From Diploptera punctata (Eukaryota > Arthropoda > Insecta > Blattodea > Blaberidae), in contig JASPKZ010003419.1 in assembly GCA_030220185.1 (NCBI GenBank), positions 407,501 through 471,500 of the forward strand: a DNA stretch of 64,000 nt, read 5' to 3'. The first letter of the stretch is position 1. Each line of letters opens with the position of its first letter. The notes under the pieces were generated by a model. It was not told the DNA's origin. It ran no database searches and saw nothing but the letters and a program-made list of their open reading frames with translations. Below, in pieces: positions 3,408-62,099 of the stretch. The position numbers were made by a program, and so were the translations under genes.

Positions 3408-3546
3408 TACTGTGCGTCCAAGCGATAAAACGGTGTGTGAGGAGGGCGCTGCATTTTTATCTGATTGTTGTATGCGCTTAATTAAGTATATATTGTGACA
3501 TAGTTCATCAACTTGCCACTCTGTATCATTGCTTGGACGCATAGTA
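3408..3546. mobile_element. Cassette MITE, copy 2
   Basis: TACTGTGCGTCCAAGCGAT at the left end and ATTGCTTGGACGCATAGTA at the right end form terminal inverted repeats around about 100 bp of non-coding sequence. It is followed by the same conserved flank (CTCTGCGTGTTAGTGTGC region) as the other copies. Confidence 0.8.
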
Positions 3547-3954
3547 ATGTTTTATTTTATGCGTCATACCGTATCGGACTGTACATTGTCACCAAATGTT
3601 ATTATTCATTAATAAAGTAACAAAATACACTAATTCTGTAGCTCTGCGTGTTAGTGTGCTAGTTTTTATAAATTTTGTATCTCAACATCACTATAGACAA
3701 GTATTTTAGTGCGGTCTTTAGACCAGATATATCACTGTATTCCAAGCCAGTCCCAACGCAACTATATCATTACATCATGCAATATTTATACAGATTACTA
3801 GATTAGAAATTACACACACACTCTCCACCCAAGTCATGTAACAAATTACATTCACAAAAAAAATATAATTCCTAAAATATAAAACAAAAAAAGTTGCATT
3901 AGTAGCTAATGAAAGGTAGCTATATAATTGACATATTTCAATTTTGTTGTTAGA

Positions 3955-4275
3955 TACAACTTCGCTCATTAGAGGATTGACTCAAGGACAAAGTGATACA
4001 GACAATTTTTTTAATTGATGAAATACATTTTGTAAATACATTTAAAAAAATTCAAATTGTAGGTCTAATTGAAGTATACACACTATAAAGTAGAACTTTT
4101 GTAAAGATGGTTTCTTAAAATTGAAATTGATCCTCTAATGGCAGCGATGGCAATTTTAGAAAGATACACCCTGTCCAAATCTAAGGAATTCCAAAATTTG
4201 GCTAAGAATCCTGGTATAGTACCTCTTGCCCCAATCATCAATCCTGTGACAGCTATACTATCTAGTTGGTGTTTA
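3955..4275 (-). mobile_element. LINE remnant, C-terminal end of the reverse-transcriptase ORF (copy 1)
   Basis: The minus strand encodes V-T-G-L-M-I-G-A-R-G-T-I-P-x-F, a motif typical of the C-terminus of insect non-LTR retrotransposon polyproteins. About 66 residues remain open (4083-4283). A near-identical copy lies at 18060-18400, with the same boundary near the minisatellite or receptor sequence. Confidence 0.6.
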
Positions 4276-4284
4276 TAGAACATA

Positions 4285-5453
4285 CATGGACAAAGGTGAT
4301 GTTCATATCAAAGGCATACAGTAGAGATGTAGGAGGACAATTTTCGTATGAATTGCATAAATTAAACATTTTTGATACTAGGAACATATAATAAAATGTT
4401 CTTAGAGAATTTCCGTTTGGAAGGCACATAATAATCATGCGCAAAGAAAAATTTTATATCAAATGCATATAATAAATGTGCACGAAAGTAATTTTCTGAT
4501 GAAAGGAATTGAACAAGCATGGATGAAGATAATTTTCCTAAAAGAGATAGAATGAACATGGAAGAAATTATTTTCATATTAAGGGCATGGGATGAACATG
4601 GAGGAAATTAATTATAATACATAAAGACGCAGTATAAACATGGACGAAGATAATTTCCTAAACAAATGAATAGTATAGACATGGAAAAATGTAATTTAGA
4701 AATTAAAAACATAGAAAGAACATGGAAGGCATATAATAAGCATGTGCAAAGGAAACTTTTATATCAAATGCATATAATAAATGTGGACGAAAGTAATTTT
4801 CTGATGAAAAGAATTGAACAAGCATGGATGAAGATAATTTTCCTAAAAGAGATAGAATGAACATAGAAGAAATTATTTTCATATTAAGGGCATGGGATGA
4901 ACATGGAGGAAATTAATTATAATACATAAAGACGCAGTATAAACATGGACGAAGATAATTTCCTAAACAAATGAATAGTATAGACATGGAAAAATGTAAT
5001 TTAGAAATTAAAAACATAGAAAGAACATGGAAGGCATATAATAAGCATGTGCAAAGGAAACTTTTATATCAAATGCATATAATAAATGTGGACGAAAGTA
5101 ATTTTCTGATGAAAAGAATTGAACAAGCATGGATGAAGATAATTTTCCTAAAAGAGATAGAATGAACATGGAAGAAATTATTTTCATATTAAGGGCATGG
5201 GATGAACATGGAGGAACTTAATTCTAATACATAAAGACGCAGTATAAACATGGACGAAGATAATTTCCTAAACAAATGAATAGTATAAACCTGAAAAAAT
5301 GTAATTTGAAATTAAAAACAAAGAAAGAACAAAGACGAAGATAATTTCCACATCAAATACACAGCATAATCATAAACGAAGAAAATTCTGAAATGAAACG
5401 CATAGAAAGAACAGGGACAAAGACAACTTTCACATCAAATACGTAGAGTCAAA
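4285..5453 (+). repeat. Start-codon minisatellite 2 with a 305-bp higher-order repeat
   Basis: Array of the 40-42 bp unit (..ACATGGACGAAGATAATTTTC..). Inside it a 305-bp block is repeated almost perfectly: 4666-4970 and 4971-5275 encode the same 64-residue open frame, with partial copies before (from about 4437) and after (to about 5300). The array runs into the start of the receptor pseudogene at 5454. Confidence 0.85.
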
Positions 5454-5902
5454 TTGGTTGAAGTTAATTTTCATCTTTCAGTGAAGCCATTATTTCTCTT
5501 GTCGAGTAGATTCGGTTTGGGTCCTGTTTCTTCTTTCAACAGATATCAGAGAAACATATATACACGTCTTAATATCTTGTGGACATTGCTTTGGAGACTT
5601 TAAATTATAGCTTTTACGTTTACGATTTGTATCTCTAAAGGAATTAACAACCCAACCAATAGCGTATCAGATAGTAACAAATCTAAATTTTTCCTCTCAA
5701 TTCTTAGCAATCATTATCAATTTATTAAACACAATTTTTGTTAGAAATAATTTTCCAAGAATGTTTTCAAAGTTTTGTGAAGCTGGCAAACACATGTTAG
5801 AGACACACCTATTGAATTCACTCCTAGTGGACTTTTCACTCTGAACTTGTCACTTCTTTGCAGTACAATTGGAGTATAATTATGCTTCAGATTAGAGATT
5901 AG
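5454..5902 (+). pseudogene. Gustatory receptor pseudogene (Gr-A2), internally deleted
   Basis: The sequence follows the Gr-A paralogues codon by codon from V-E-V-N-F-H-L to about residue 47, but the start codon is TTG. A TCA codon has become TAA after L-W-R-L, and frameshifts follow. At about 5790 the frame jumps from the F-C-E-A-(D/G)-K region (about residue 112) straight to V-R-D-T-P-I-E-F-T (about residue 346), so some 230 codons are missing. The last segment again resembles the paralogues' C-terminus and has lost the T-Y motif through a small deletion. This copy cannot encode a receptor. Confidence 0.9.
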
Positions 5903-6259: not shown

Positions 6260-6399
6260 TACTGCGCGTCCAAGCGATGAGGCGGTATATGAGCAGGGCG
6301 CTGCATTTTTTATCTGATTATGGTTTGCACTTAATTATGTATGTTTTGTGTCGTATTTCATCAACTCGCCACTCTGTCTCATTGCTTGGACGCATAGTA
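6260..6399. mobile_element. Cassette MITE, copy 3
   Basis: Ends TACTGCGCGTCCAAGCGAT and ATTGCTTGGACGCATAGTA are inverted repeats. The interior (GAGCAGGGCGCTGCATT and ATCAACTCGCCACTCTGT) matches copies 2 and 4. It starts about 360 bp after the receptor pseudogene and is followed by the conserved flank, but no start array or receptor follows it directly. Confidence 0.8.
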
Positions 6400-6837
6400 A
6401 TGTTTTATTTTATGCGTCATATTGTATCGGTCTGTAAATTGTCACCAAATGTTATTTTCTATTTATGAAGTAATAAAACAACTAATTCTGTAGCTCTGCG
6501 TGTTAGTGTTCTAGTTTCTATCTCAATATCACTAGAGATAATTATTTTAGTGAGATCTCTAGAGGAGATATACCACTTTACTCCAAGCCAATGCCTCCCA
6601 ACCAAATTATATTATTACATCATGCAATATTTAATACCGTTTATTAGATTAGAAACTAGAACCAAGTCATGTAACAAATTATATTCACGAAATAATATAA
6701 TTCCTAAAATGTAAAACAACAAATGTTGCATTAGTACCTATTGAAAGGCATGTGTGTAGAGACCTTTCACATGAAAGACATAGTCTCTGACATAGGGTGG
6801 AAGGGAATTCCATGTTTTGGTAAATGAGACCGTAAAT

Positions 6838-8089: not shown

Positions 8090-8845
8090 TGTGTCACCCT
8101 TCAAAAAGCATGAACATTTCAAAGTTAATTGCCTTCACTACGTTTGCACTGTGTTTTGGATTGTGTTAACGGGTGCATTTGGATGCTATCAAAACATACG
8201 TAAGAATGGATTTCTAAAAGGAATCGCCACCAAAACTAAGCATATCTGCAACAATTATTTTTGGATGCTATCAAACATACGTAACAATGGATTTCTAAAA
8301 GGAATCGCCACCAAACTAAGCATATCTGCAAAAATTATTTTTGGATGCTATCAAACATACGTAACAATGGATTTCTAAAAGGAATCGCCACCAAAACTAA
8401 GCATATCTGTAACAATTATTTTTGGATGCTATCAAACATACGTAACAATGGATTTCTAAAAGGAATCGCCACCAAAACTAAGCATATCTGCAACAATTAT
8501 TTTTGGATGCTATCAAACATACGTAACAATGGATTTCTAAACGGAATCGCCACCAAAACTAAGCATATCTGCAAAAATTATTTTCGTCGCCATGTTATTT
8601 GAAAATGTGATAATCTTACAACCAACATCGTGAAGAGAAAAGCCTTTGCTAAAATAAAGAGTACATTGTGGAAGACGGACAAAACATTGTTACCAACATC
8701 AGATGAAAAGGTCTACGACAAAGAGAAGTTGTGTTCCATTAAATACATTATAATCATGTGTGTGGATAATGTAGCTTATGTTATCACAAACATTTGTTCG
8801 TTTTTAGACGCATCTTTTTACGTCATTACAGAATCCAATTAATGT
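8090..8845 (+). pseudogene. Gustatory receptor pseudogene (Gr-B1) with an internal tandem repeat
   Basis: Broken receptor-like sequence: a V-F-W-I-V-L-T-G-A-F-G-C-Y stretch like the first membrane segment of the receptors near 55-58 kb, then five copies of an 81-bp unit. After these comes K-I-K-S-T-L-W-K-T-D-K-T-L-L, followed by Y-D-K-E-K-L-C-S-I-K-Y-I-I-I, which matches the E-I-Y-K-K-E-R-x-C-S-I-x-D-I-x-I loop and third membrane segment. The rest of the receptor is absent. A better preserved relative of the same fragment follows at 8895. Confidence 0.7.
8181..8590 (+). repeat. 81-bp tandem repeat inside a receptor pseudogene, five copies
   Basis: Units begin with GGATGCTATC at 8181, 8263, 8343, 8424 and 8505 (spacings 82, 80, 81, 81) and are nearly identical. 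81 bp is 27 codons, so a perfect unit keeps frame and would repeat a membrane-edge peptide. The two off-size units shift the frame. Confidence 0.92.
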
Positions 8846-9984: not shown

Positions 9985-10571
9985 TAAAGGCATACAATAA
10001 ACAAGTGTGTAAAGATATGTCATATAAAAGACATAGAAGAAACATGGGCGAAGAAGATTTTCATATGAAACATGCACAGTAGACATATGCGACGACAATG
10101 TTTGTAAGCATGGCATGAATTAAACATTGTAGAAGGCTATTTTCATACTAAGAACATATAATAAATATGTTCTTAGATAATGTTGATATCAAAAGCACAG
10201 AATAAATATGGATGATAAAATGTCCATATGAAAAGCATGGAACAAACAAGAATGAAGATAGTTTTCATATAAATGTTAGAATAAACATCAACTAAATTAA
10301 TTTTCTAATTACAGACATAGAAATAACATGGAGGAAGTTAGTTTTAATGTTTAAAACATGGACGAACATAATTTCCTAAACAAATGCATAGTATAAACTT
10401 GGAAAATGTATTTTTTAAATTAAAAACATAGAAAGAACATAGACGAAGAAAATTTCCACATAAAATACATAGAATAATCATAGACGAAGGCAACTTTCAA
10501 TTGAAAGGAATAAAATAAGTAGAAAGAATATGGGCAAAGACAATTTTTACATAGTATACATAGAATAGAAA
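9985..10571 (+). repeat. Start-codon minisatellite 3
   Basis: About 14 diverged 40-42 bp units with the core catagAATAAACATGG.CGAAG..AATTTTCATAT. The array ends in CATAGAATAGAAAATGGCTGAAG, in which the ATG is the start of the receptor at 10572. It is preceded by the same conserved flank (TAGAGGAGATATACCACT region, about 9790) found before the other receptors. Confidence 0.8.
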
Positions 10572-11759
10572 ATGGCTGAAGTTAATTTTCATCTTACGGT
10601 GAAACCATTATTTCTCTTGTCGAGTATATTCGGTTTTGGTCCTGTTTCTTCTTTCAAAAGATATGAAAGAAACATATATACATGTCTTAACATCTTGTGG
10701 ATATTGCTTTGGGCACTTTCAATTATAGCTTTTATGGTTTTCGATCTTTATTTGACTCTAAAGGAAATAAAAACCCAACCAATAGCGTATCAGATAGTAA
10801 CAAATCTGTATTTGTTCTCTATTTTCATACCAATCATTATCAATTTACTAAACAACATTTATGTTCGAAATAATTTTCCAAGAATATTTTCAAAGTTTTG
10901 TGAAGCTGACAAAACACTGTTATCTAAATCAGATGTTATAATATACCGAAGAGAAAGATTTGTTTCTATTAAAGACATTATGATAGTAACAATCATTATT
11001 CTGTTTATTCAAATAGGTTCCTTTTTTATGTCTAGACATCATTCAATTGTGCGCATTATAATTATTCTTACTGAACAACTAACCTTGTTTCTCAACACTA
11101 TAGTTACATTACAATTCAAGTTCTGGGTCCGACAATTAAATCAAAGGTTAAAAATCATCAACAACTACCTCGTGAAATATACAAATCACCACGAAATAGA
11201 TATCATCAAATCGTCTCGACCAAACAAAGTAGTAAACTTCATAGAGTGCACAGATATTTCATCAAGAGAATTTGTGAAGCAGACGAGAGCCATCCAGTGG
11301 TTAAGACATGTTTACAGTGTTTTGTTTGAAGCAAAGGAACTTGTGAATTCTACATATGCAGTTCCAAACGTGTGTCAGTTGATCACGTGCTACGTGTCAT
11401 GTGTGAGTGCACTGTACTGGGGGATTGACGCTGTCTCCAGTCAGACAAACCAGTTAGAAGTTCTAGTGTGCTTCGTTATGTGTGCATATTCGTTGCTGTT
11501 ATTAGCGTGGGTTCTGCTGAACTGCCACAGGGCGCGTGAAGAAGCAAACAAGATAGTTATATACATTCAGAAAGTCACTGCAAACCCAAGTTTCCCTCAA
11601 TTCATTGAAGATGAACTGATGAAGTTTGTGTCACAGGTTAGAGACACACCTATTGAATTCACTCCCGGTGGACTTTTCACTCTGAACTTGTCACTCCTTT
11701 GCAGTACAATTGGAGTTATATGTACATACAGTGTTATCATGCTTCAGATTAGAGATTAG
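10572..11759 (+). CDS. Gustatory receptor, intact single-exon gene (Gr-A3)
   Basis: A 395-residue receptor, collinear without gaps with the products at 1711 and 28803. It starts M-A-E-V-N-F-H-L-T-V-K-P-L-F and ends T-Y-S-V-I-M-L-Q-I-R-D. All seven hydrophobic segments are kept. Differences from the paralogues concentrate in the second to fourth membrane segments and the short loops (for example F-M-S-R-H-H-S where Gr-A1 has W-M-F-G-F-H-S). Membrane segment 5, T-Y-A-V-P-N-V-C-Q-L, and the C-terminal 60 residues are almost invariant. That pattern is what one expects if ligand specificity varies while the channel core is held. The start is fixed by the paralogue alignment. Confidence 0.88.
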   Translation: MAEVNFHLTVKPLFLLSSIFGFGPVSSFKRYERNIYTCLNILWILLWALSIIAFMVFDLYLTLKEIKTQPIAYQIVTNLYLFSIFIPIIINLLNNIYVRNNFPRIFSKFCEADKTLLSKSDVIIYRRERFVSIKDIMIVTIIILFIQIGSFFMSRHHSIVRIIIILTEQLTLFLNTIVTLQFKFWVRQLNQRLKIINNYLVKYTNHHEIDIIKSSRPNKVVNFIECTDISSREFVKQTRAIQWLRHVYSVLFEAKELVNSTYAVPNVCQLITCYVSCVSALYWGIDAVSSQTNQLEVLVCFVMCAYSLLLLAWVLLNCHRAREEANKIVIYIQKVTANPSFPQFIEDELMKFVSQVRDTPIEFTPGGLFTLNLSLLCSTIGVICTYSVIMLQIRD

Positions 11760-15669: not shown

Positions 15670-16125
15670 TTTTGAAGAGCATAGAATAAACATGTGTGTA
15701 GAGACTTTTCAAACGAAAGACGTTGAAAAAATAGGAGCGAAGTGGATTTTCATATGAAACACGTACAATGGACATGTGCGACGACAGTTTTAGTAAAAAT
15801 ACAGAACGTAAACTTTTATTTGCTGCAAAAGACTATATTTTTATACTAAGATCATACAATAAAGATGTTCTTGGAAAATTGACACATAAATATAAAGCAT
15901 ACAAGAAACATGTGCGAAGCAGAATTCTCTTATCAAATGCCAGTAGAATAAATAGTGCGGAAAAAATTATATGAATCAGGGAAAGAGTAACATTTGCAAA
16001 AGTAATTTCTGATGAAACAAATAAAACCAAATGGTTGCTAAGGGAGATTTTGATATGAAACTAATTAAAATAAACATGGACGAAGATAATTTCCCCACGA
16101 CATACATAACAACAACAAAAGGGCG
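15670..16125 (+). repeat. Start-codon minisatellite 4
   Basis: About ten degenerate 40-42 bp units (..CATAGAATAAACATGTGTG.., ..TAAACATGGACGAAGATAAT..) run up to the ruined start region of the receptor pseudogene at 16126. It is preceded by the conserved flank from 15300 to 15660. Confidence 0.7.
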
Positions 16126-17330
16126 AAGTGAATTTTCATCCTTTCAGTGAACACCCATATTGTGTTTCTCTTGTCGAGAATATTCGGTTTGGACGCCTGT
16201 TGATTCTTTCAACAGCTATCAGACGAAGAAGCAACATACCTGTCTTAATATTGTTCTGACCCGACATTGCTTTGGACGCTTTCAATTATAGCTTTTGTAG
16301 TTTTCGAATGCATTAATGGCTTTACATGAAGTTATTAACAATCCAACCAATAGGACATCAGCTATCATCAATTCTGTCATTTATTTGTACTATTTTCCTA
16401 GCATGCCTCATCAATTTATTAAATAACATTTTTGTGAGAAATAATTTTCCAAGAATATTTTCAAAGTTTTGTGAAGCTGACAAAATACTGTTGTCTAAAT
16501 CAGATGGTATAATATACCGAAGAGAAAGATTGGTTTCCATTAAAGACATTATGATCTTAGTCATCATTACTGTGTTTACACAAATAGGTTTCAGTTGGAT
16601 GAATGGCTTTCATTCAATTGTACACATTTTGATTTATAATCTTGAACAGTTACCATTTTTTCTCAACACTATAGTTACATTACAGTTCAAGTTCTGGGTC
16701 CGACAATTGAATCAAAGGTTAAAAATCATCAACAACTACCTTGTGAAACACACAAATCACCACCAAGCAGAAATCATCAAATCATTTCGACCAAACGAAG
16801 TTGTAAGCTTCATAGATTGCAAAGATATTTCATCTAGATATTTTGTTAAGCACCTAAAAGACATCCAGTGGTTAAGGTATGTTTACAGTGTTTTGTTTGA
16901 AGCAAAGCAACTTGTGAATTCTACATATGCAGTTCCAAACGTGTGTCAGTTGATCACGTGCTATGTGACGTGTGTGGGTGCTCTGTACTGGGGGATCCAC
17001 GCTGTTTCCAGTCATACAGGTCAAATACAAGCGACAGTGTACTTTGTGGTATGTTCTTATGCATTGCTGTTATTAGCGTGGGTGTTGCTGAACTGTCATA
17101 TGGCGTGTGAAGAAGCAAACAAGATAATTGTATACATTCAGAAAGTTATTGCAAACCCAAGTTTTACTCAATTTACTGAAGATGAACTGATGAAGTTCGT
17201 GTCACAGGTTAGAGACACACCTATTGAATTCAGTCCATGTGGACTTTTCACTCTAAACTTGTCACTCCTTTGCAGTACAATTGGAGTTATTTGTACATAC
17301 AGTGTTATCATGCTTCAGATTGGTGATTAG
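16126..17330 (+). pseudogene. Gustatory receptor, N-terminus disrupted by many small insertions (Gr-A4)
   Basis: From 16326 the frame is open for 334 codons and matches residues 62-395 of the Gr-A receptors, ending T-Y-S-V-I-M-L-Q-I-G-D, with membrane segments 2-7 complete. The sequence upstream (16126-16325) still aligns with the first 61 codons, but it lacks the ATG and carries an extra 1-7 bases roughly every 10 bases, without comparable substitutions elsewhere. Membrane segment 1 is therefore unreadable. A decayed gene would normally show damage throughout. The sharp boundary suggests either a recent local event or uncorrected long-read sequence. As it stands it is a pseudogene or an N-truncated receptor. 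Confidence 0.8.
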
Positions 17331-18059: not shown

Positions 18060-18400
18060 ATTTTATATTTTTTTATATATACAACTTTCCTCATTAGAGG
18101 ATTGCTTCAAGGACAAAGTGATACAGACAATTCATTTTTTGAATTGATGAAATACATTTTGTAAATACATTTTAAAAAATTCAAATTGTAGGCCTAATTG
18201 AAGTAAACGTACTACAAAGTAGAAATTTTGTAAATATGGTTTGTTAACATTTAAATTGATCCTGTAATGGCAGCGATGGCAATTTTAGAAAGATATACCC
18301 TGTCCAAATCTAAGGAATTCCAAAATTTGGCTAAGAATCCTGGTATAGTACCTCTTGCCCCGATCATCAATCCTGTGACAGTTACACTATCTAGTTGGTA
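18060..18400 (-). mobile_element. LINE remnant, C-terminal end of the reverse-transcriptase ORF (copy 2)
   Basis: Nearly identical to 3955-4275. The minus strand reads V-T-G-L-M-I-G-A-R-G-T-I-P-G-F-L-A-K-F. The two copies share both the coding part and the TCATTAGAGGATTG 3' part. The copy stops where the next element begins (18405). Confidence 0.6.
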
Positions 18401-18404
18401 TTTA

Positions 18405-18870
18405 TCATAAGTAATGCCACGAGTGATTTCCAAATTATCGATAAATTCACGACTCACGAAGTGAGGAGTGAATTTATCTAGAGAATTTGGAAATCAAGAG
18501 TGGCATTTGTTAGGACTATTTAACGAATAAAATTAAGCTGTTTACTCACAAATCATTATTTAACTATAGTTATTTTAAAATATTTATATATTTAATGTAA
18601 ACGGCGATGTTTGAAAACAAATGAGAAACGATAGGTACGCTTCTACTGCTTCTTTTGTTTATCACTGTAACCAGATCATACTATTTATTGCCAAAGGAAC
18701 GCAATATTGTAAGGAGGAGCTTTCTTTAATATCGTAATTATAACACTGATAAATATTTGGTGAAACACGACTCTGATTGGTTGTAATACAGAAATCATTG
18801 AAACGTGATTGGTCAATGACTCCCATTTGGGGCATGAGTTAAATAGTCTTTGTAATAGTCAACTGTCGGC
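18405..18870. mobile_element. Non-autonomous DNA element, copy 2
   Basis: Shorter relative of 875-1630. Its left part forms a hairpin: AATGCCACGAGTGATTTCC (18413) pairs with GGAAATCAAGAGTGGCATT (18489), around GATAAATTCACGACTCACGA. The interior shares TTGCCAAAGGAACGCAATAT and the CATTTGGGGCATGAGTTAAA end with copy 1. Confidence 0.65.
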
Positions 18871-27499: not shown

Positions 27500-27859
27500 C
27501 TGTTTTATTTTGAACTTCACATCGCAACGATCTGTAAATTGCCCCCAATTTGAATTATTTATTTATCAAGTAACAAAACAATTAATTCTATAAAACTGCG
27601 TGTTAGTGTGCAAGGACAATTTAATTCAATACTCAATATATCTGTTGATAAATATCACAATGAGGTCTCTAGAGTAGATATACTGCAGGCCAAAGCTCTT
27701 TACGGTCCCAACGTAATTATGTCATTACATCATGCAACATTATAAGATCAATACATTACAAATTACCTACACAAGTCATGTAACAGAATAAAATTCACGG
27801 AATAATATAATTGCTACATAACACAAAAACATACGTTACATTAGTAGCTATTGGAAGTC

Positions 27860-28802
27860 ATAGAGTAAACATGTGCGAAGAGAATTTTCATATGAAAGAC
27901 ATAGAAAAACATGGATTAAGAAGATTTTCATATGAAATACGTGGATTAAACATTGGACAAGGCTATTTTCATACCAAGTACATAGAACAAAGATGTTCTT
28001 GGAACATTTTCATATGAAAAGCATAGAATAATTATGTGCAAAGACAATTTTCATATCAAATGCATAGAAGAAACACAAACAAAGACAATTTTCATATCAA
28101 ATGCACAGAAGAAACAAACAAAGACAATTTTCATATCAAAGGCACAGATGAACTTGGACGAAGATAATTTCCATATCGAAGACATAGAACAAACATCGAA
28201 CAAGGTAATTTTCTATCCACAGACATAGAATAAACTGATACGAAGACAATTCTTTAACCAAAGGCACATATAAACTTGCATGAGATAATTTTCATATCGA
28301 ACACATAGAATAAACGTCGAGGAAGATAATTTTCATATTGGAGACAAAACAAGCATCAAATAAGGTACTTTTCTAACCAAAGGGATAGAATAAACATGAA
28401 CGAAAGTAATTTTCTAACCAAAGACACAAATAAACTTGGACGAATACGATTTTCAAATCGATGGTATGGAACGAACATGGATGACGACTATTTTCTAACC
28501 GGAGGCGTAGATTAAAAATGAACGAAGGATGTTTTCATATAAGAGAGTTAGAATAAACATGGACGAAGATAATTTTCATATAAACATGCATAGGATAAAC
28601 ATAGAGGAACATAATTTTCTTATGAAATACGTAGAATAAATATGTGCGAAAAAAAATTATATGAATCAGAAAGAGTAACATTTGCAAAAGTAATTTTCTG
28701 ATGAAACAAATAAAACCAAATTGTGCTAAGGAGATTTTGATATGAAACTCATTGAATGATCATAGACGAAGAGAATTTCCACATGAAATACATAGAATAA
28801 AA
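27860..28802 (+). repeat. Start-codon minisatellite 5 (longest)
   Basis: About 23 units averaging 41 bp: catagaataaacATGnnCGAAGnnAATTTTCATAtnnAAn. Examples start at 27866 (ACATGTGCGAAGAGAATTTT) and 28556 (ACATGGACGAAGATAATTTT). The final unit, CATAGAATAAAAATGGCTGA at 28791, contains the receptor start codon. Units read M-C-E-E-N-F-H-M-K or M-D-E-D-N-F-H-I, against M-A-E-V-N-F-H-L-T-V-K in the receptor. Because most units are not multiples of three, the ATGs fall in all frames. Confidence 0.9.
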
Positions 28803-29990
28803 ATGGCTGAAGTGAATTTTCATCTTACGGTGAAACCATTATTTATCTTGTCGAGTATATTCGGTTTGGGTCCTGTTTCTTCTTTCAACAGATACCAAAG
28901 AAACATATATACATGTCTTAAGATCTTGTGGACATTGATTTGGACACTTTCAATTATAGCATTTATGGTTTTCGATTCGTACGTTACTACAAATCAATTA
29001 ACAATCCATCCAGTGGCACATCAGCTATCATCAATTCTCTATTTTTCTTCTCTCTTCCTAGCATGCATCATCAATTTACTAAACAACATTTTTGTTAGAA
29101 ATAATTTTCCAAGAATATTTTCAAAGTTTTGTGAAGCTGACAAAACACTGTTATCAAAACCCGATTTTATAATATACCGAAGAGAAATATTTGTTTCCAT
29201 TAAAGACCTCATAATAATAGCAATCATTACTGTGTTTACACAAATAGGTTTCTGTTGGGTGAATGGATACCATTCAATTGTCCACATTGTAATTTATAAT
29301 GCTGAACAGTTTCCATTCTTTCTGAACACTATAGTTACATTGCAGTTCAAGTTCTGGGTCCGACAATTGAATGAAAGGTTAAAAATCATCAACAACTACC
29401 TTGTGAAACATACAAATCACCACCAAACAGAAATCATCAAATCATTTCGAACAAATAAAGTTGTAAGCTTCATAGAATACACAGATATATCATCCAGAGA
29501 ATTTGTGAAGCACGCGAGAAACATCCAGTGGTTAAGACATGTTTACAGTGTTTTGTTTGATGCAAAGCAACTTGTGAATTCTACATATGCAGTTCCAAAC
29601 GTGTGTCAGTTGATCACGTGCTATGTGACGTGTGTGGGTGCTCTGTACTGGGGGATTGACGCTGTCTCCAGTCATACAGGTCAGATACAAGCGATAGTTT
29701 TCTTCGTTGTGTGTGCTTATGCATTGCTGTTATTAGCGTGGGTTCTGCTGAACTGTCACAGGGCGCGTGAAGAAGCAAACAAAATAATTGTATACATTCA
29801 GAAAGTTAGTGCAAACCCAAGTTTCCCTCAATTCATTGAAGATGATTTGATGAAGTTTGTGTCACAGGTGAGAGACACACCTATTGAATTCACTCCTTGT
29901 GGACTTTTCACTCTGAACTTGTCACTCCTTTGCGGTACAATTGGAGTAATATGTACATACAGTGTTATCATGCTGCAGATTAAAGGTTAG
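28803..29990 (+). CDS. Gustatory receptor, intact single-exon gene (Gr-A5)
   Basis: A 395-residue receptor starting M-A-E-V-N-F-H-L-T-V-K and ending T-Y-S-V-I-M-L-Q-I-K-G. An in-frame ATG 17 codons upstream (28752) lies inside the minisatellite and is not preferred, since the two intact paralogues start at the equivalent of 28803. Closest to Gr-A4 at 16126: both share the Q-L-S-S-I-L second membrane segment, the H-T-G-Q-I-Q-A loop and R-L-K-I-I-N-N-Y-L-V-K-H-T-N-H-H-Q. This agrees with the duplication of their whole cassette. All seven membrane segments and the Gr C-terminal signature are present. Probably a functional taste receptor; ligand unknown. Confidence 0.88.
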   Translation: MAEVNFHLTVKPLFILSSIFGLGPVSSFNRYQRNIYTCLKILWTLIWTLSIIAFMVFDSYVTTNQLTIHPVAHQLSSILYFSSLFLACIINLLNNIFVRNNFPRIFSKFCEADKTLLSKPDFIIYRREIFVSIKDLIIIAIITVFTQIGFCWVNGYHSIVHIVIYNAEQFPFFLNTIVTLQFKFWVRQLNERLKIINNYLVKHTNHHQTEIIKSFRTNKVVSFIEYTDISSREFVKHARNIQWLRHVYSVLFDAKQLVNSTYAVPNVCQLITCYVTCVGALYWGIDAVSSHTGQIQAIVFFVVCAYALLLLAWVLLNCHRAREEANKIIVYIQKVSANPSFPQFIEDDLMKFVSQVRDTPIEFTPCGLFTLNLSLLCGTIGVICTYSVIMLQIKG

Positions 29991-54640: not shown

Positions 54641-55079
54641 TGTAATGTAGAGAAAATCCTTAATAAAAATATAAAGTTTACAATCCAGATAGTTTATATT
54701 ATTCAACTGTTTGTGTGTGAAACCGAAACAAAAGACAGCCAGAAGTCTAATTTCTCATTATACTAGTCAACTGTTTGTGTGTGGAACCAAGACAAAAGAC
54801 AGTCATAAGTCTAACTTCTCATTATACTATCTTGCAATCTTACCTTTTAGTATATAAAAGTCGTGAAGCTATTCACCACCTATCATATTATAAGGGCAAA
54901 GTAACTCCACCTTCCAGATGCCCGACCTTAAGAAGTGGGTTACAATTTCGCCATGCCAGGAGAGAATGCCAGAAATGTGACAAAGATAATCTGGAATCAT
55001 TTGTAAAAAAATGAAGAATGAAATACGCAGAACTTTAGATAAATATCCCTAATTAATAACAAAATTCAATAAAATTAAC

Positions 55080-55282
55080 TTGAACATAAAGTATAGCTAT
55101 TGCACACGCGATTAAGTATTCCCAGATGGATAAAAAAGTAAAACTCAACTAATAACTATGTTTGAACCTCATGTCGTGCATGACCTACAACAAGGAAAAT
55201 AAGTTTCATAATTGGGTTCAAAACACTTCATTTTACTAGCATCAGTTGCTAAAAAGACAAGCAATACAGATACACGTGCAAT
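55080..55282 (+). promoter_or_regulatory. Conserved 5' flank shared by the two Gr-D genes (candidate promoter)
   Basis: ATAAAGTATAGCTATTGCAC.. ACGCGATTAAGTATTCCCA.. here and at about 56628-56826 are aligned blocks of about 190 bp before each start codon. They show that leader and promoter were duplicated with the gene. No defined core-promoter element can be named. Confidence 0.5.
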
Positions 55283-56538
55283 ATGGACGAAAAAGAATTT
55301 TATTCTACCATAAAACCTTTATATTTGTTCTCAAGAATTTTTGGTTTGTTGCCTGTTTCAATATTCAAAAGAGGATCTTGGCAAATAAGATGCTTGCTTC
55401 TCATCTGGACATTTATATGGATAATTTCTTTAACTTGTTACACCTGTTATGATGCCTACTGTGTAGTGGATGACTGGAAAGTGGATCCCATAACCATTTA
55501 CGATGTATCATTTTTTATTTACTTCACGACGCTCTCTGTCTCGTGTGTCATAAATTTAATAAACAATATTGTTTTCAGAAATAACTTCCCAAAAATAATT
55601 TCCAATTTTTTGTGAAATGGACAAAGAATTATTACCAAGATCAGGGATCGAAATATATAAAAAAGAAAGAATCTGTTCTATTGTAGACATTGTTATCATC
55701 AAAACAATGTTCTTGGCTTCAAATGTTGGATTATTTTTTATTCTTTATTCGGGCACAATTTTAGGAGACGTGTATACATTCTTTGGGAACATACCATTCC
55801 TTATTAACAACCTGCAGATTATGCAGTTCATTACTTGGGTCAGAAAAAATCAATCAAAGGTTGAAAATCATTAATTACATCCTAAAGAATCAAACAAAAG
55901 TTGATCAAATAGTTCTGACAAGAATAATAAGATCAAACATAATTGGAAACATGCCTGAGAATTTGAGAGGAACTTCAGTGGGACAATCTGTCAAGCATTC
56001 AGACGATATTCAACTGTTGCAAAGCGTTTATATTAATCTGTACCGAACAAACGGAACTATAAATTCAATATACTCGATGCCTATTGTCTGTCAGACCATC
56101 ACCAACTACATAACGTGTGTCTCCTCGCTGTATTTGGCCATAGACAAATTATCTGAAGGAAGGTGGGTGAATGATTCCACTGTTTATTTTGGTATAGTGA
56201 TTTGTATATTGTTGATATTGGTGTGGATGTTGAAGAACTGCCACCTAGCGTGTGGAGAAGCAAACAGTATAATTGAAAACATTCACGAAATGACAACGAA
56301 TTCAAACATTTCACAAACAGCTGAAAGTGATTTGTTGAAATTCAAGTTACTTGTGAAAGATATGCCGATTGAATTTACACCTTATGGACTTGTGAAATTA
56401 GATATGTCTTTACTTTGCAGTACCGTTGGTATCATCTGCACCTACATTATAATTCTCATTCAATTTAAATCATCAGTCCCTCAAACTGATGACTCAACAC
56501 AGAAAATAATAACAACTACAGAAACTGCTAATAACTAA
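55283..56538 (+). pseudogene. Gustatory receptor with two single-base frameshifts (Gr-D1)
   Basis: A full-length receptor reading M-D-E-K-E-F-Y-S-T-I-K-P-L-Y-L-F-S-R-I-F-G-L-L-P-V-S at the start and ending T-Y-I-I-I-L-I-Q-F, the exact Gr signature, followed by a 23-residue tail. The frame breaks twice. One extra T in the T run 55606-55611 follows I-I-S-N, where Gr-D2 has S-K-F-C-E. One extra A in the A run 55844-55849 lies within R-K-I-N-Q-R-L-K. Everything between is well preserved, with seven membrane segments. Both breaks lie in homopolymers, so sequencing error is as likely as a true pseudogene. Confidence 0.85.
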
Positions 56539-56826: not shown

Positions 56827-58063
56827 ATGGGTGAAGAAGAATTTTATTCTACTGTAAAACCTTTATTTTTGTTCTCAAGAAATTTTGGTTTGGTGCCTGT
56901 TTCGATATTCAAAACAGAATCTTGGCAAGTAAGGTATTTGCATCTTATCTGGACATTTATATGGATCATTTCTTTAAGTGGTTCCGAATGTTACGGCATC
57001 AACCTTTCCTTGGAAGATTGGGGGGATGGTCCGGTATATATATATGAATTATCAAATGAATTTTACTTCACGACGCTCTCTGTCGCAAGTATAATAAATT
57101 TAATAAACAATATTGTATTTGGAAATAACTTCCCAAAAATAATTTCCAAGTTTTGTGAAGTGGACAAAGAACTAATACCAAGATCAAGTATTGAAATATA
57201 TAGAAGAGAAAGAATGTCTTCTATAATAGACATTATCATCATCACAACCAGTTTCGTGGCTTCAAGTGTTGGATTATGTTTGGTTCTTGAACCAGAGTCA
57301 TTTCAATATTATGTCTTTACAGTGTTTGGAAACCTACCATTACTTATTAATGACCTGCAAATTCTCACATTCCTGACTTTGGTTAGGAAAATCAATCAAA
57401 GATTGAAAATAATTAATTACATCCTAAAAAATCAAACAAAAGTTGATCAAACCGTTTCGACAAGAATATTAAGATCAAATATCATTGGAAACGTATCTGA
57501 GAATTTGAGAGAAACTTCAGAGGAACAAACTGTCAAGCATTTAGATGACGTTCAACTGTTGCAAAGCATTTACATTACTCTGTACCGAACAAAAGATACT
57601 ATAAATTCAACATATTCGATGTCTATTGTTTGCCAGGTCATGACCATCTATATAACAGGTGTCTCATCGCTGTATTTGGCCATACACGAATTGTCTGAAG
57701 GAGGATATGCGATTGATTCAATTGAACATTTTGGCACAGTTAGCCATGTACTGCTGATGTTAGCATGGGTGCTGATGAACTGCCACCTAGCGTGTGAAGA
57801 AGCAAACAGTATAATTGAAAACATCCACGAAATGACAACAAATTCAAACATTTCAGAAACAGTTCAAAGTGATTTGAAATTCAAGTTACTTGTGAAAGAT
57901 ATGCCGATTGAATTTACACCTTATGGACTTTTCAAATTAGATATGTCATTTCTTTTGCAGTACCGTCGGTATTATCTGCACCTACATCATAATTCTCATA
58001 CAGTTCAGAATATCAACTGGTGAGACCACGCCGAAAAAATTAAATACAACTGAAATAGAGTAA
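56827..58063 (+). CDS. Gustatory receptor, C-terminus frameshifted (Gr-D2)
   Basis: Tandem partner of Gr-D1, starting M-G-E-E-E-F-Y-S-T-V-K-P-L-F-L-F. An in-frame ATG ten codons earlier (56797) lies in the conserved flank and is not preferred. Membrane segments 1-6 are intact, at about residues 38-58, 79-97, 124-144, 151-171, 272-291 and 304-328. As written, the frame stops at 58023 with an unrelated ending, because a T run (57953-57956) has one base more than in Gr-D1. In the other frame the sequence continues C-T-Y-I-I-I-L-I-Q-F to a TAA at 58061. A one-base homopolymer error would therefore explain the loss of the last membrane segment. Otherwise it is a recent pseudogene. Confidence 0.82.
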
Positions 58064-59839: not shown

Positions 59840-62096
59840 TCTTTAGGTTAGCTTTTAAATTGCTTTAGGTTAGCTTTTGAATTGCGTTAGGTTAGAATTT
59901 TAGGTTGGTCTTTCACAGGTTATAGTACTTAAATTGCGTTAGGTTAGCTTTCATGTTTGTTGTTTACATGGTACAGTACTTAAATTGCGTTAGGTTAGCT
60001 TTTAGGTTGGATTTTCACAGGTTATAGTAATTAAATTTCGTTAGGTTAGCATTTGTGTTGGTCTTTCACAGGTTAGACTACTTAAAATGCATTAGCTTAG
60101 CTTTTAGGTTTGTCTTTCACAGGTTAGAGTACTTAAATTGAGTTAGGTTAGCTTTTAGGTAGGATTTTCAAAGGTTAGAGTATTTAAAATGCGTTAGGTT
60201 AGCTTTTGGGTTGGTCTTTCACAGGTTAGAGTACTTAAATTGAGTTAGGTTAGCTTTTAGGTTGGATTTTCAAAGGTTAGAGTATTTAAATTGAGTTAGG
60301 TTAGCTTTTAGGTTGGATTTTCAAAGGTTAGAGTATTTAAATTGCGTTAGGTTAGCTTTTGGGTTGGTCTTTCAGAGGTTAGAGTACTTAAATTGAGTTA
60401 GGTTAGCTTTTAGGTTGGACGTTCACAGGTTAGAGTATTTAAATTGCGTTAGGTTAGCTTTTAGGTTGGTCTTTCACAGGTGTAGTACTTAAATTGAGTT
60501 AGGTTAGCTTTTGGGTTGGTCTTTCACAGGTTAGACTACTTAAATTGCATTAGGTTAGCTTTTAGGTTGGTCTTTCACAGGTTAGAGTACTTAAATTGAG
60601 TTAGGTTAGCTTTTAGGTTGGATTTTCAAAGGTTAGAGTATTTAAATTGAGTTAGGTTAGCTTTTGGGTTGGTCTTTCACAGGTTAGACTACTTAAATTG
60701 CATTAGGTTAGCTTTTAGGTTTGTCTTTCACAGGTTAGAGTACTTAAATTGCGTTAAGTTAGCACTTGGGTTGGTCTTTCACAGGTTAGACTACTTAAAT
60801 TGAGTTAGGTTAACTTTTAGGTTGGATTTTCACAGGTTATAGTAATTAAATTTCGTTAGGTTAGCATTTGGGTTGGTCTTTCACAGGTTAGACTACTTAA
60901 ATTGCATTAGGTTAGCTTTTAGGTTTGTCTTTCACAGGTTAGAGTACTTAAATTGAGTTAGGTTAGCTTTTAGGTTGGATTTTCACAGGTTATAGTATTT
61001 AAATTGCGTTAGATTAGCTTTTGGATTGGTCTTTCACAGGTTAGACTACTTAAATTGCATTAGGTTAGCTTTTAGGTTGGTCTTTCACAGGTTAGAGTAC
61101 TTAAATTGAGTTAGGTTAGCTTTTAGGTTGGACTTTCACAGGTTAGATTATTTAAATTGCGTTAGGTTAGTTTTTGGGTTGGTCTTTCACAGGTTAGACT
61201 ACTTAAATTGCATTAGGTTAGCTTTTAGGTTGGTCTTTCACAGGTTAGAGTACTTAAATTGAGTTAGGTTAGCTTTTAGGTTGGTCTTTCACAGGTTAGA
61301 CTACTTAAATTGCATTAGGTTAGCTTTTAGGTTGGTCTTTCACAGGTTAGAGTACTTAAATTGAGTTAGGTTAGCTTTTAGGTTGGACTTTCACAGGTTA
61401 GAGTACTTAAATTGAGTTAGGTTAGCTTTTAGGTTGGTCTTTCACAGGTTAGAGTACTTAAATTGAGTTAGGTTAGCTTTTAGGTTGGACTTTCACAGGT
61501 TAGAGTACTTAAATTGAGTTAGGTTAGCTTTTAGGTTGGACTTTCACAGGTTAGATTATTTAAATTGCGTTAGGTTAGTTTTTGGGTTGGTCTTTCACAG
61601 GTTAGACTACTTAAATTGCATTAGGTTAGCTTTTAGGTTGGTCTTTCACAGGTTAGAATACTTAAATTGAGTTAGGTTAGCTTTTAGGTTGGACTTTCAC
61701 AGGTTAGAGTACTTAAATTGAGTTAGGTTAGCTTTTAGGTTGGCCTTTCACAGGTTAGAGTACTTAAATTGAGTTAGGTTAGTTTTTGGGTTGGTCTTTC
61801 ACAGGTTAGAGTACTTAAATTGAGTTAGGTTAGTTTTTGGGTTGGTCTTTCACAGGTTAGAGTACTTAAATTGAGTTAGGTTAGCTTTTAGGTTGGTCTT
61901 TAACAGGTTAGAGTTCTTAAATTGCTTTAGATTAGTTTTCAGGTTTGTCTTTCACAGGTTAGAGTACTTAAATTGCGTTAGGTTAGCTTTTAGTTTGATG
62001 TTTCACACGTTAGAGTACTTAAATTGCGTTAGGTTAGCTTTTAGGTAGGTTTTTCACAGGTTAGAGCGCTTAAATTACGTTAGGTTAGCTATTAGG
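59840..62096. repeat. 51-bp minisatellite rich in TTAGG, about 44 copies
   Basis: The unit carries GTTAGGTTAGCTTTTAGG, TTGGTCTTTCACAGG and TTAGAGTACTTAAATTGA in order. Consecutive units at 61261 and 61312 are 51 bp apart. Variants (GAG/GCA/GCG starts, GGTCTTTC/GGACTTTC, GAGTAC/GACTAC) recur in a pattern: the block around 61141 is repeated exactly 408 bp (eight units) later at 61549. Units at the left edge are most diverged. Each unit holds several TTAGG or TTAG motifs. Confidence 0.93.
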
Positions 62097-62099
62097 TTC

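Follow-up and report, generated by a model that had tools for sequence, protein, structure and literature searches.

Minisatellites are tandem repeats with units of about 10–100 bp. The yeast GCN4 leader contains several upstream open reading frames (uORFs), short frames that stand ahead of the main frame. In apple, the R6 minisatellite of the MYB10 promoter multiplies a short piece of the gene's own 5′ region ahead of the gene (according to parts of PMC5671642 and PMC11321683), and the sea urchin Sp185/333 genes, a fast-evolving clustered family, have tandem repeats beside each gene (according to parts of PMC5103432). Cockroaches possess a clade of gustatory receptors (Grs) without introns in the coding region, in which single-exon 7tm_7 receptors are found in tandem clusters with pseudogenes (described in sections of PMC6175461). 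Here we describe tandem arrays ahead of Gr genes of Diploptera punctata. The stretch analysed, referred to as the window, is 64,000 nucleotides long (C3367:407501–471500; L-numbers refer to pieces of the flanking scaffold) and sits inside a Gr cluster of this species. It contains five blocks of a degenerate 41-bp unit, one upstream of each of five copies of a receptor that we call GrA. The unit corresponds to the receptor's own start region and comprises 12 nt of leader, the ATG and codons 2–7 (M-D-E-D-N-F-H). The blocks and the genes behind them are as follows:

678–879, + strand, 5′ part of the GrA1 array, units 1–5 (unit parse and profile hits)
898–1592, + strand, insert within array A1, not array (898–1129 and 1447–1580 match 18480–18846; the middle is without a match in the window)
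1593–1698, + strand, 3′ part of the GrA1 array, last units (profile hits and unit parse)
1711–2898, + strand, GrA1, intact single-exon gustatory receptor, 395 aa (PF08395, 7tm_7, E 3.4e-31)
3935–4274, + strand, insert between leader and array A2 (90% identical to 18060–18403)
4275–5441, + strand, GrA2 array (305-bp higher-order repeat ×3 at 4418–5331, 97% matches)
5454–5876, + strand, GrA2, damaged receptor, start codon now TTG
9991–10558, + strand, GrA3 array, 14 units
10572–11759, + strand, GrA3, intact receptor, single exon, 395 aa (PF08395, E 5e-29)
15680–16104, + strand, GrA4 array, 10 units
16118–17330, + strand, GrA4, damaged receptor, start codon lost, body open from 16326
27859–28790, + strand, GrA5 array, 23 units of about 41 bp (Tandem Repeats Finder, profile and unit parse)
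28803–29990, + strand, GrA5, intact receptor, single exon, 395 aa, start is the last unit of the array (PF08395, E 6.5e-29; 28/33 to the unit)

The consensus of the unit is CATAGAATAAAC-ATG-GAC-GAA-GAT-AAT-TTT-CAT-ATCAAAGA. Read directly from its ATG, it translates as M-D-E-D-N-F-H-I-K-D-I-E-stop, and the stop ends 2 nt ahead of the next ATG. Units of the window itself were used to build a profile in four rounds (40, 41, 34 and 32 hits at E ≤ 0.1). In its last form it identified 32 copies in the window, all on the plus strand and all within the five blocks, with none elsewhere at this threshold. The weakest real hit scored 13.5 bits, compared with at most 10.2 bits in 50 dinucleotide-shuffled windows searched with the same model (10.0 bits with the model of the preceding round). 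Over a 33-nt core, the consensus matched the gene start at 28 positions at 28803 and at 26 positions at 1711; the GrA3 start is shifted by 1 nt and gave 21/33 when aligned without gaps. For the start at 28803, none of 1,000 shuffled cores matched at more than 19/33, and the best site in the window outside the blocks reached 22/33. The original prediction, that the upstream unit copies the receptor's own start region, is borne out by these values.

Cyclic alignment of the blocks gave 107 rows. When the 16 rows within the A1 insert and the five gene starts were left out, 86 units remained, distributed as 9, 30, 14, 10 and 23 over A1 to A5 in this one assembly (one of the nine in A1 straddles the insert edge), with a mean identity to the consensus of 0.777. 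Tandem Repeats Finder (TRF) reported a period of 41 bp ×19.5 on the A5 array (27855–28644). These are head-to-tail tandem copies of a unit of tens of base pairs, that is, minisatellites. In all five blocks the unit alignment placed the gene start as the last unit, as had been proposed. The start codon is embedded in the array in this way in the three intact genes; both damaged genes, GrA2 and GrA4, are without the ATG itself. The five array positions given by the original prediction also held, except that the first block is interrupted, with units at 678–879 and 1593–1698 and the insert between, and that the second begins at 4275. No array of the 41-bp unit was found away from Gr genes in 284 kb of scaffold; genome-wide, coverage was a single search, which gave back only the location of its query.

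The insert in A1 matches 18480–18713 with its positions 898–1129 (93%) and 18711–18846 with its positions 1447–1580 (80%). Together, the A1 and A2 inserts (898–1592 and 3935–4274) match adjacent parts of a single stretch at 18060–18846 with 80–93% identity, and it looks as if one mobile element had entered both. An element resembling a miniature inverted-repeat transposable element, with terminal inverted repeats of 21–30 nt (TACTGTGCGTCCAAGCGATGA...), is located upstream of GrA copies at 186–300, 3408–3546 and 6260–6399; its arms were present in three of the four stretches tested.

The coding half of the unit recurs in Gr genes that have no array, two of which are in the window:

55283–56538, + strand, GrB1, frame-damaged array-less paralogue, MDEKEFY..., single copy of the start codons (13/18 after the ATG)
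56827–58023, + strand, GrB2, array-less paralogue, MGEEEFY... (12/18 after the ATG)

The match at B1 was equalled by none of the 2,319 other ATGs in the window, and that at B2 by two. P0003, an array-less paralogue 24 kb left of the window, reached 14/18, with 13 the best among 7,785 flank ATGs, and an array-less Gr at L022:9319 (MDEEKFN) likewise reached 14/18. Applied to 220 kb of flanks, the unit profile returned ten hits at E ≤ 3. The two best, at 11.3 and 9.0 bits, are the start codons of the array-less Grs at L022:9319 and L004:5800 (MDEEQFH), and three more coincide with array-less Gr starts (L007:1315, L005:7569 and L007:8784), so that five of the ten fall on starts. Four weak 14-nt matches (8.4–8.6 bits) inside Gr coding matches, at L009:7231, L009:2037, L007:3127 and L011:3260, are possibly chance similarities of conserved codons; the tenth hit lies elsewhere, on the minus strand at L021:7716. 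We did not detect array remnants upstream of array-less paralogues with the unit profile, either in the window or in the flanks. Since the coding half is shared with array-less paralogues and the best profile hits fall on array-less Gr starts, the gene start is ancestral and the array is made of it; copying ran from gene to array.

A second array of this type is found 3.7 kb to the left of the window, where TRF reported 60 bp ×44 at C3367:401158–403798 (L002:3658–6298). Exact anchors gave 43 units, 42 of them with ATGAC; the 39 units of exact length differ from the consensus by a mean of 1.21 mismatches. The last unit continues into a Gr broken by frameshifts. From this unit on, 398 bp are 87% identical to g369553 (L005:2053), an intact receptor of 391 codons plus stop that represents an array-less sister. 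In g369553 the 60-bp segment is single-copy: the leader aligns with the first array unit and the coding sequence with the last. Between the 60-bp unit and the GrA start there is no resemblance (alignment score 15 versus a null mean of 14.1). In a tree of 13 receptors, which leaves out the damaged Gr adjoining the 60-bp array, the three GrA genes form one fully supported clade and g369553 belongs to another; both wider groups include array-less genes, and the forks between them have moderate support (86–89). Start-codon arrays apparently arose twice independently in the cluster.

Other Gr sequence has been arrayed as well. A 41 bp ×32 array that adjoins the 60-bp array (C3367:399733–401054; L002:2233–3554) matches a stretch some 200 bp 5′ of g369553 (87% over 31 nt). 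An 87 bp ×16 array (29 codons; C3367:360233–361632, in L006) lies inside Gr coding sequence and has single-copy counterparts in two neighbouring Grs. The best counterpart of a 39 bp ×19 array upstream of P0004 (88% over 41 nt) is found 0.3–0.4 kb 5′ of another Gr's coding match. One more is in the window:

8178–8584, + strand, 81 bp ×5 minisatellite (27 codons) made of coding DNA from a decayed Gr; other Grs have single-copy counterparts

Four arrays thus match Gr sequence that is either coding or upstream, so that start codons are one source among others. The origin of an array is assignable only where a paralogue retains the source, and Gr origins are therefore over-detected. The right flank, which is without Gr matches, also bears arrays (64 bp ×5, 66 bp ×4.7, 41 bp ×39.6, 93 bp ×5.3 and others). 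The region makes minisatellites readily, and several of those in the cluster are made of receptor sequence. For other arrays of the cluster, among them an 81-bp array of about 36 copies at C3367:319795–322734 (L010), no Gr source was traced; by eye, one reading of this 81-bp unit is Cys-rich (KCKLCDRCHLL). A dispersed 64-bp tandem repeat family occurs in three places (window 54694–54829, C3367:484751–485078 and C3367:295246–295699), and a GGTTAG-rich satellite of 51 bp ×43.5 occupies 59880–62098 of the window.

The order of the units is common to the arrays in six of the ten pairs (P < 0.05), and one variant, ATGTTCTT, occupies the fourth or fifth position in every array. On this basis the array predates the GrA duplications. 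Jukes–Cantor (JC) divergence between paralogous arrays was 0.23–0.43 for the first units and 0.12–0.37 for the last, which spans the ranges of both the flanks (JC 0.11–0.28) and the synonymous sites of the genes (dS 0.22–0.32). The arrays thus decay about as fast as silent sites, with no clear constraint. Coding columns of the unit are not better conserved than non-coding columns (0.767 versus 0.784), and the ATG is retained in 36 of 71 units, a set from which the A1-insert rows (16), the gene starts (5) and the units of the recent repeat in block 2 (15) were left out. That repeat (305 bp ×3, 97% matches) marks a recent re-amplification. Ratios of nonsynonymous to synonymous divergence (dN/dS) were 0.39–0.52 in pairwise comparisons among the intact genes GrA1, GrA3 and GrA5, indicating that the GrA genes remain under purifying selection despite the arrays.

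Taken as a whole, the arrays are very probably by-products of local tandem duplication followed by slippage or unequal exchange, without a selected function. The original prediction had mentioned slippage as one option, and it is the reading that best fits the sharing of the unit with array-less paralogues, the neutral-like decay and the second case. A tandem duplication of about 41 bp would have spanned the start codon of an ancestral GrA gene, taking in at least 12 nt of leader, the ATG and six further codons. Further copies of the unit would then have been added by slippage or unequal exchange in the space from a conserved leader motif to the start codon. The array would have been present before the GrA gene was copied and would have moved along with each copy, decaying about as fast as unselected sequence and re-amplifying locally on occasion (the 305 bp ×3 of block 2). 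A like event would have occurred independently in another Gr of the cluster (the 60 bp ×44), and pieces of Gr coding and upstream sequence would have been arrayed too. Because such pieces are arrayed, the start codon is one of several substrates and not a designed target. The account rests on the identity of the unit, the direction of copying, the shared order in six of ten pairs and the second case with its array-less sister; from these we infer the mechanism of duplication and the lack of function.

Several observations weigh against this account. In the window outside the arrays, the profile gave five weak hits (E ≤ 10), among which the B1 and B2 starts held only ranks 4 and 5 and the other three were not Gr starts. 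The start of G50171, an array-less Gr, matched at just 5/18. Fourteen array-less starts outside the window were measured, nine at the ATG and five at the tblastn start, that is, out of register (5–7/18). Five of the nine in register also have only 5–7/18; the others are P0003 with 14 and three with 11, and 137 of 7,785 background ATGs reach at least 10. Homology of the leader half of the unit to the B1 and B2 leaders was not demonstrable, and local alignment of GrA with GrB leaders was by itself not significant (smallest p 0.063 of 8). Among 12 comparisons, two possible matches with the leader of 50171 turned up, one of the unit's leader (equalled by 11 of 2,502 background sites) and one of the GrA3 leader (by 1 of 2,502). 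Shared unit order was not significant in four of the ten array pairs, and few bases were aligned in some of the array comparisons (40 and 62 in two first-unit pairs). Retention of the ATG slightly exceeds that of base-matched columns (3.3% of matched triples and 3/39 consecutive windows are as good), which could hint at weak constraint or homogenisation. Finally, a hand estimate puts the chance of a second start-codon case at about 5% (about 7 array families, about 22 starts, 159 kb).

How the arrays stand to the transcript depends on what lies 5′ of them, and two features bear on this:

27838–27850, + strand, conserved leader motif 5′ of array A5 (other copies at 657, 3896, 6728, 9970 and 15659; B1 at 55239)
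about 6728–6784, + strand, sixth, truncated copy: leader motif and remnant of the first unit, no gene

With at most one mismatch, the 13-nt motif GCATYAGTWGCTA has seven matches in the window (four exact), compared with 0.29 expected. It is located 5′ of all five arrays (at GrA2 the insert intervenes), in the truncated copy at 6728 and, at the array-less B1, roughly 30 nt ahead of the ATG. Each array is therefore placed 3′ of the motif and 5′ of the start codon. The motif could serve as a transcription initiator, with TCAGT as the candidate consensus, or as a 3′ splice acceptor. One possibility, which we consider rather less likely than not to hold, is that the array is intronic or belongs to promoter DNA and is spliced out or lies 5′ of the true transcription start, so that its ATGs are unseen by ribosomes. 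The point is one of transcription alone and does not conflict with an origin of the arrays as duplication by-products. A 5′ untranslated region intron, identified by RNA-seq, is present in some coding-intronless cockroach Grs (in the sections of PMC6175461 referred to above). In B1 and B2, the CATCAG of the motif is preceded by a pyrimidine-rich run that scores above 92% and 97% of the YAG sites (Y, pyrimidine) in the window, and direct reading of the units reveals TTTTC...CATAG shortly 5′ of the ATG. However, the pyrimidine run of the motif is poor in the intact GrA loci (only 0.6%, 11% and 20% of YAGs score lower), and the splice acceptors inside the arrays are mediocre, the best scoring above 83–92%. 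The motif could instead be an initiator; either way, the array lies downstream of it.

We regard as improbable a reading in which the arrays are transcribed leaders full of short upstream frames that damp or tune translation of the receptor. Every intact unit would be a self-contained 12-codon frame and, as its stop lies 2 nt before the next ATG, ribosomes would arrive at the receptor only after repeated re-initiation. The placement of the arrays between leader motif and start codon is consistent with this, as is the persistence of purifying selection on the GrA genes alongside them. The three intact loci have 26, 23 and 27 upstream ATGs (76, of which 13 are inside the A1 insert), and every one of these frames closes before the gene. 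In the 60-bp array, 22 of the 46 ATG frames give the same 12-residue peptide, M-T-H-L-I-A-T-L-F-S-S-C-stop. However, shuffled leaders show no overlapping upstream frame about half the time, and selection against such frames is unsupported. The ATG is kept in only about half of the units, with coding columns not specially kept, and arrays also precede three damaged receptors (GrA2, GrA4 and that in L002). A full strong context (A/G at −3 plus G at +4) is rare, with 12 of the 76 upstream ATGs showing it. These two counts (36/71 and 12/76) qualify the original statement that many units carry an ATG in a good context. If the arrays are transcribed, either they would be missing from the mature mRNA or the intact GrA receptors would be damped; efficient translation is hard to see. 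A broader version, in which Gr start regions recurrently seed minisatellites that, when transcribed, form leaders of dozens of tandem 12-codon uORFs and silence or tune receptor copies, strikes us as a long shot. If true, fresh duplicates in a rapidly growing chemoreceptor family could be muted quickly, to a degree adjustable through copy number, before some of them become pseudogenes.

The idea that the arrays are a reservoir for shifting the N-terminus was rejected, as none of the 76 upstream ATGs in the intact loci is in frame with the receptor. At GrA4, a damaged gene that no longer has a start of its own, 3 of 12 upstream ATGs are in frame. That the array is older and the receptor took its start codon from it is very hard to credit and was likewise rejected: the last unit is indeed the gene start (28/33), but array-less paralogues share similar starts (MDEKEF, MGEEEF, MDEEQFH, MGEVQFD and MDEEKFN) and g369553, the sister of the second case, is single-copy and without an array.

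The closest named database matches of the receptors are Diploptera punctata proteins L9F63_0148xx. Two protein searches returned 7 and 8 related proteins, and 7 of the latter 8 are encoded on the same scaffold. Six window proteins were tested against Pfam, and all matched PF08395 (7tm_7) over most of the protein (E 3.4e-31 to 1.3e-18). The annotated protein P0002 / L9F63_014814 fuses a match to the damaged GrA2 start with a match to the GrA4 body and is likely a chimeric gene model, a warning that gene models beside start-codon arrays can be wrong. A viral-contig scan of the window found no relative.

We found no start-codon array described for a chemoreceptor family in the open-licence PMC literature, in line with the original prediction. 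The cited sections of the report on the intronless-coding cockroach Gr clade do not describe such arrays, and the terms 'repeat', 'upstream' and 'start codon' do not appear in its main text (PMC6175461). Nothing in the parts of PMC5103432 cited above presents the Sp185/333 repeats as copied gene sequence. The apple R6 repeat multiplies a binding motif and boosts auto-activation, as set out in the cited parts of those papers, whereas the GrA unit spans the ATG and coding sequence. Leaders of the GCN4 type would be comparable in having several short upstream frames if the GrA array is in the mRNA, but the GrA frames arise through copying of the start codon itself. Both start-codon cases raise the question of whether a receptor behind 20–40 copies of its own start region is still translatable. 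Minisatellites in general are similar in being head-to-tail, degenerate or homogeneous and subject to higher-order re-amplification, with units here of 41 or 60 bp. They differ in that the unit here is a piece of the adjacent gene across its start codon, and its single-copy source is visible in array-less relatives: B1, B2, P0003 and the L022 Gr, though not G50171, for the coding half of the 41-bp unit, and g369553 for the 60-bp unit. The birth of a minisatellite is difficult to investigate, as its single-copy ancestor has in most cases been lost. Here, the tandem family keeps an array-less, ancestor-like paralogue near the array, at start codons as well as in coding and upstream sequence, and breakpoints and ages can therefore be read directly.

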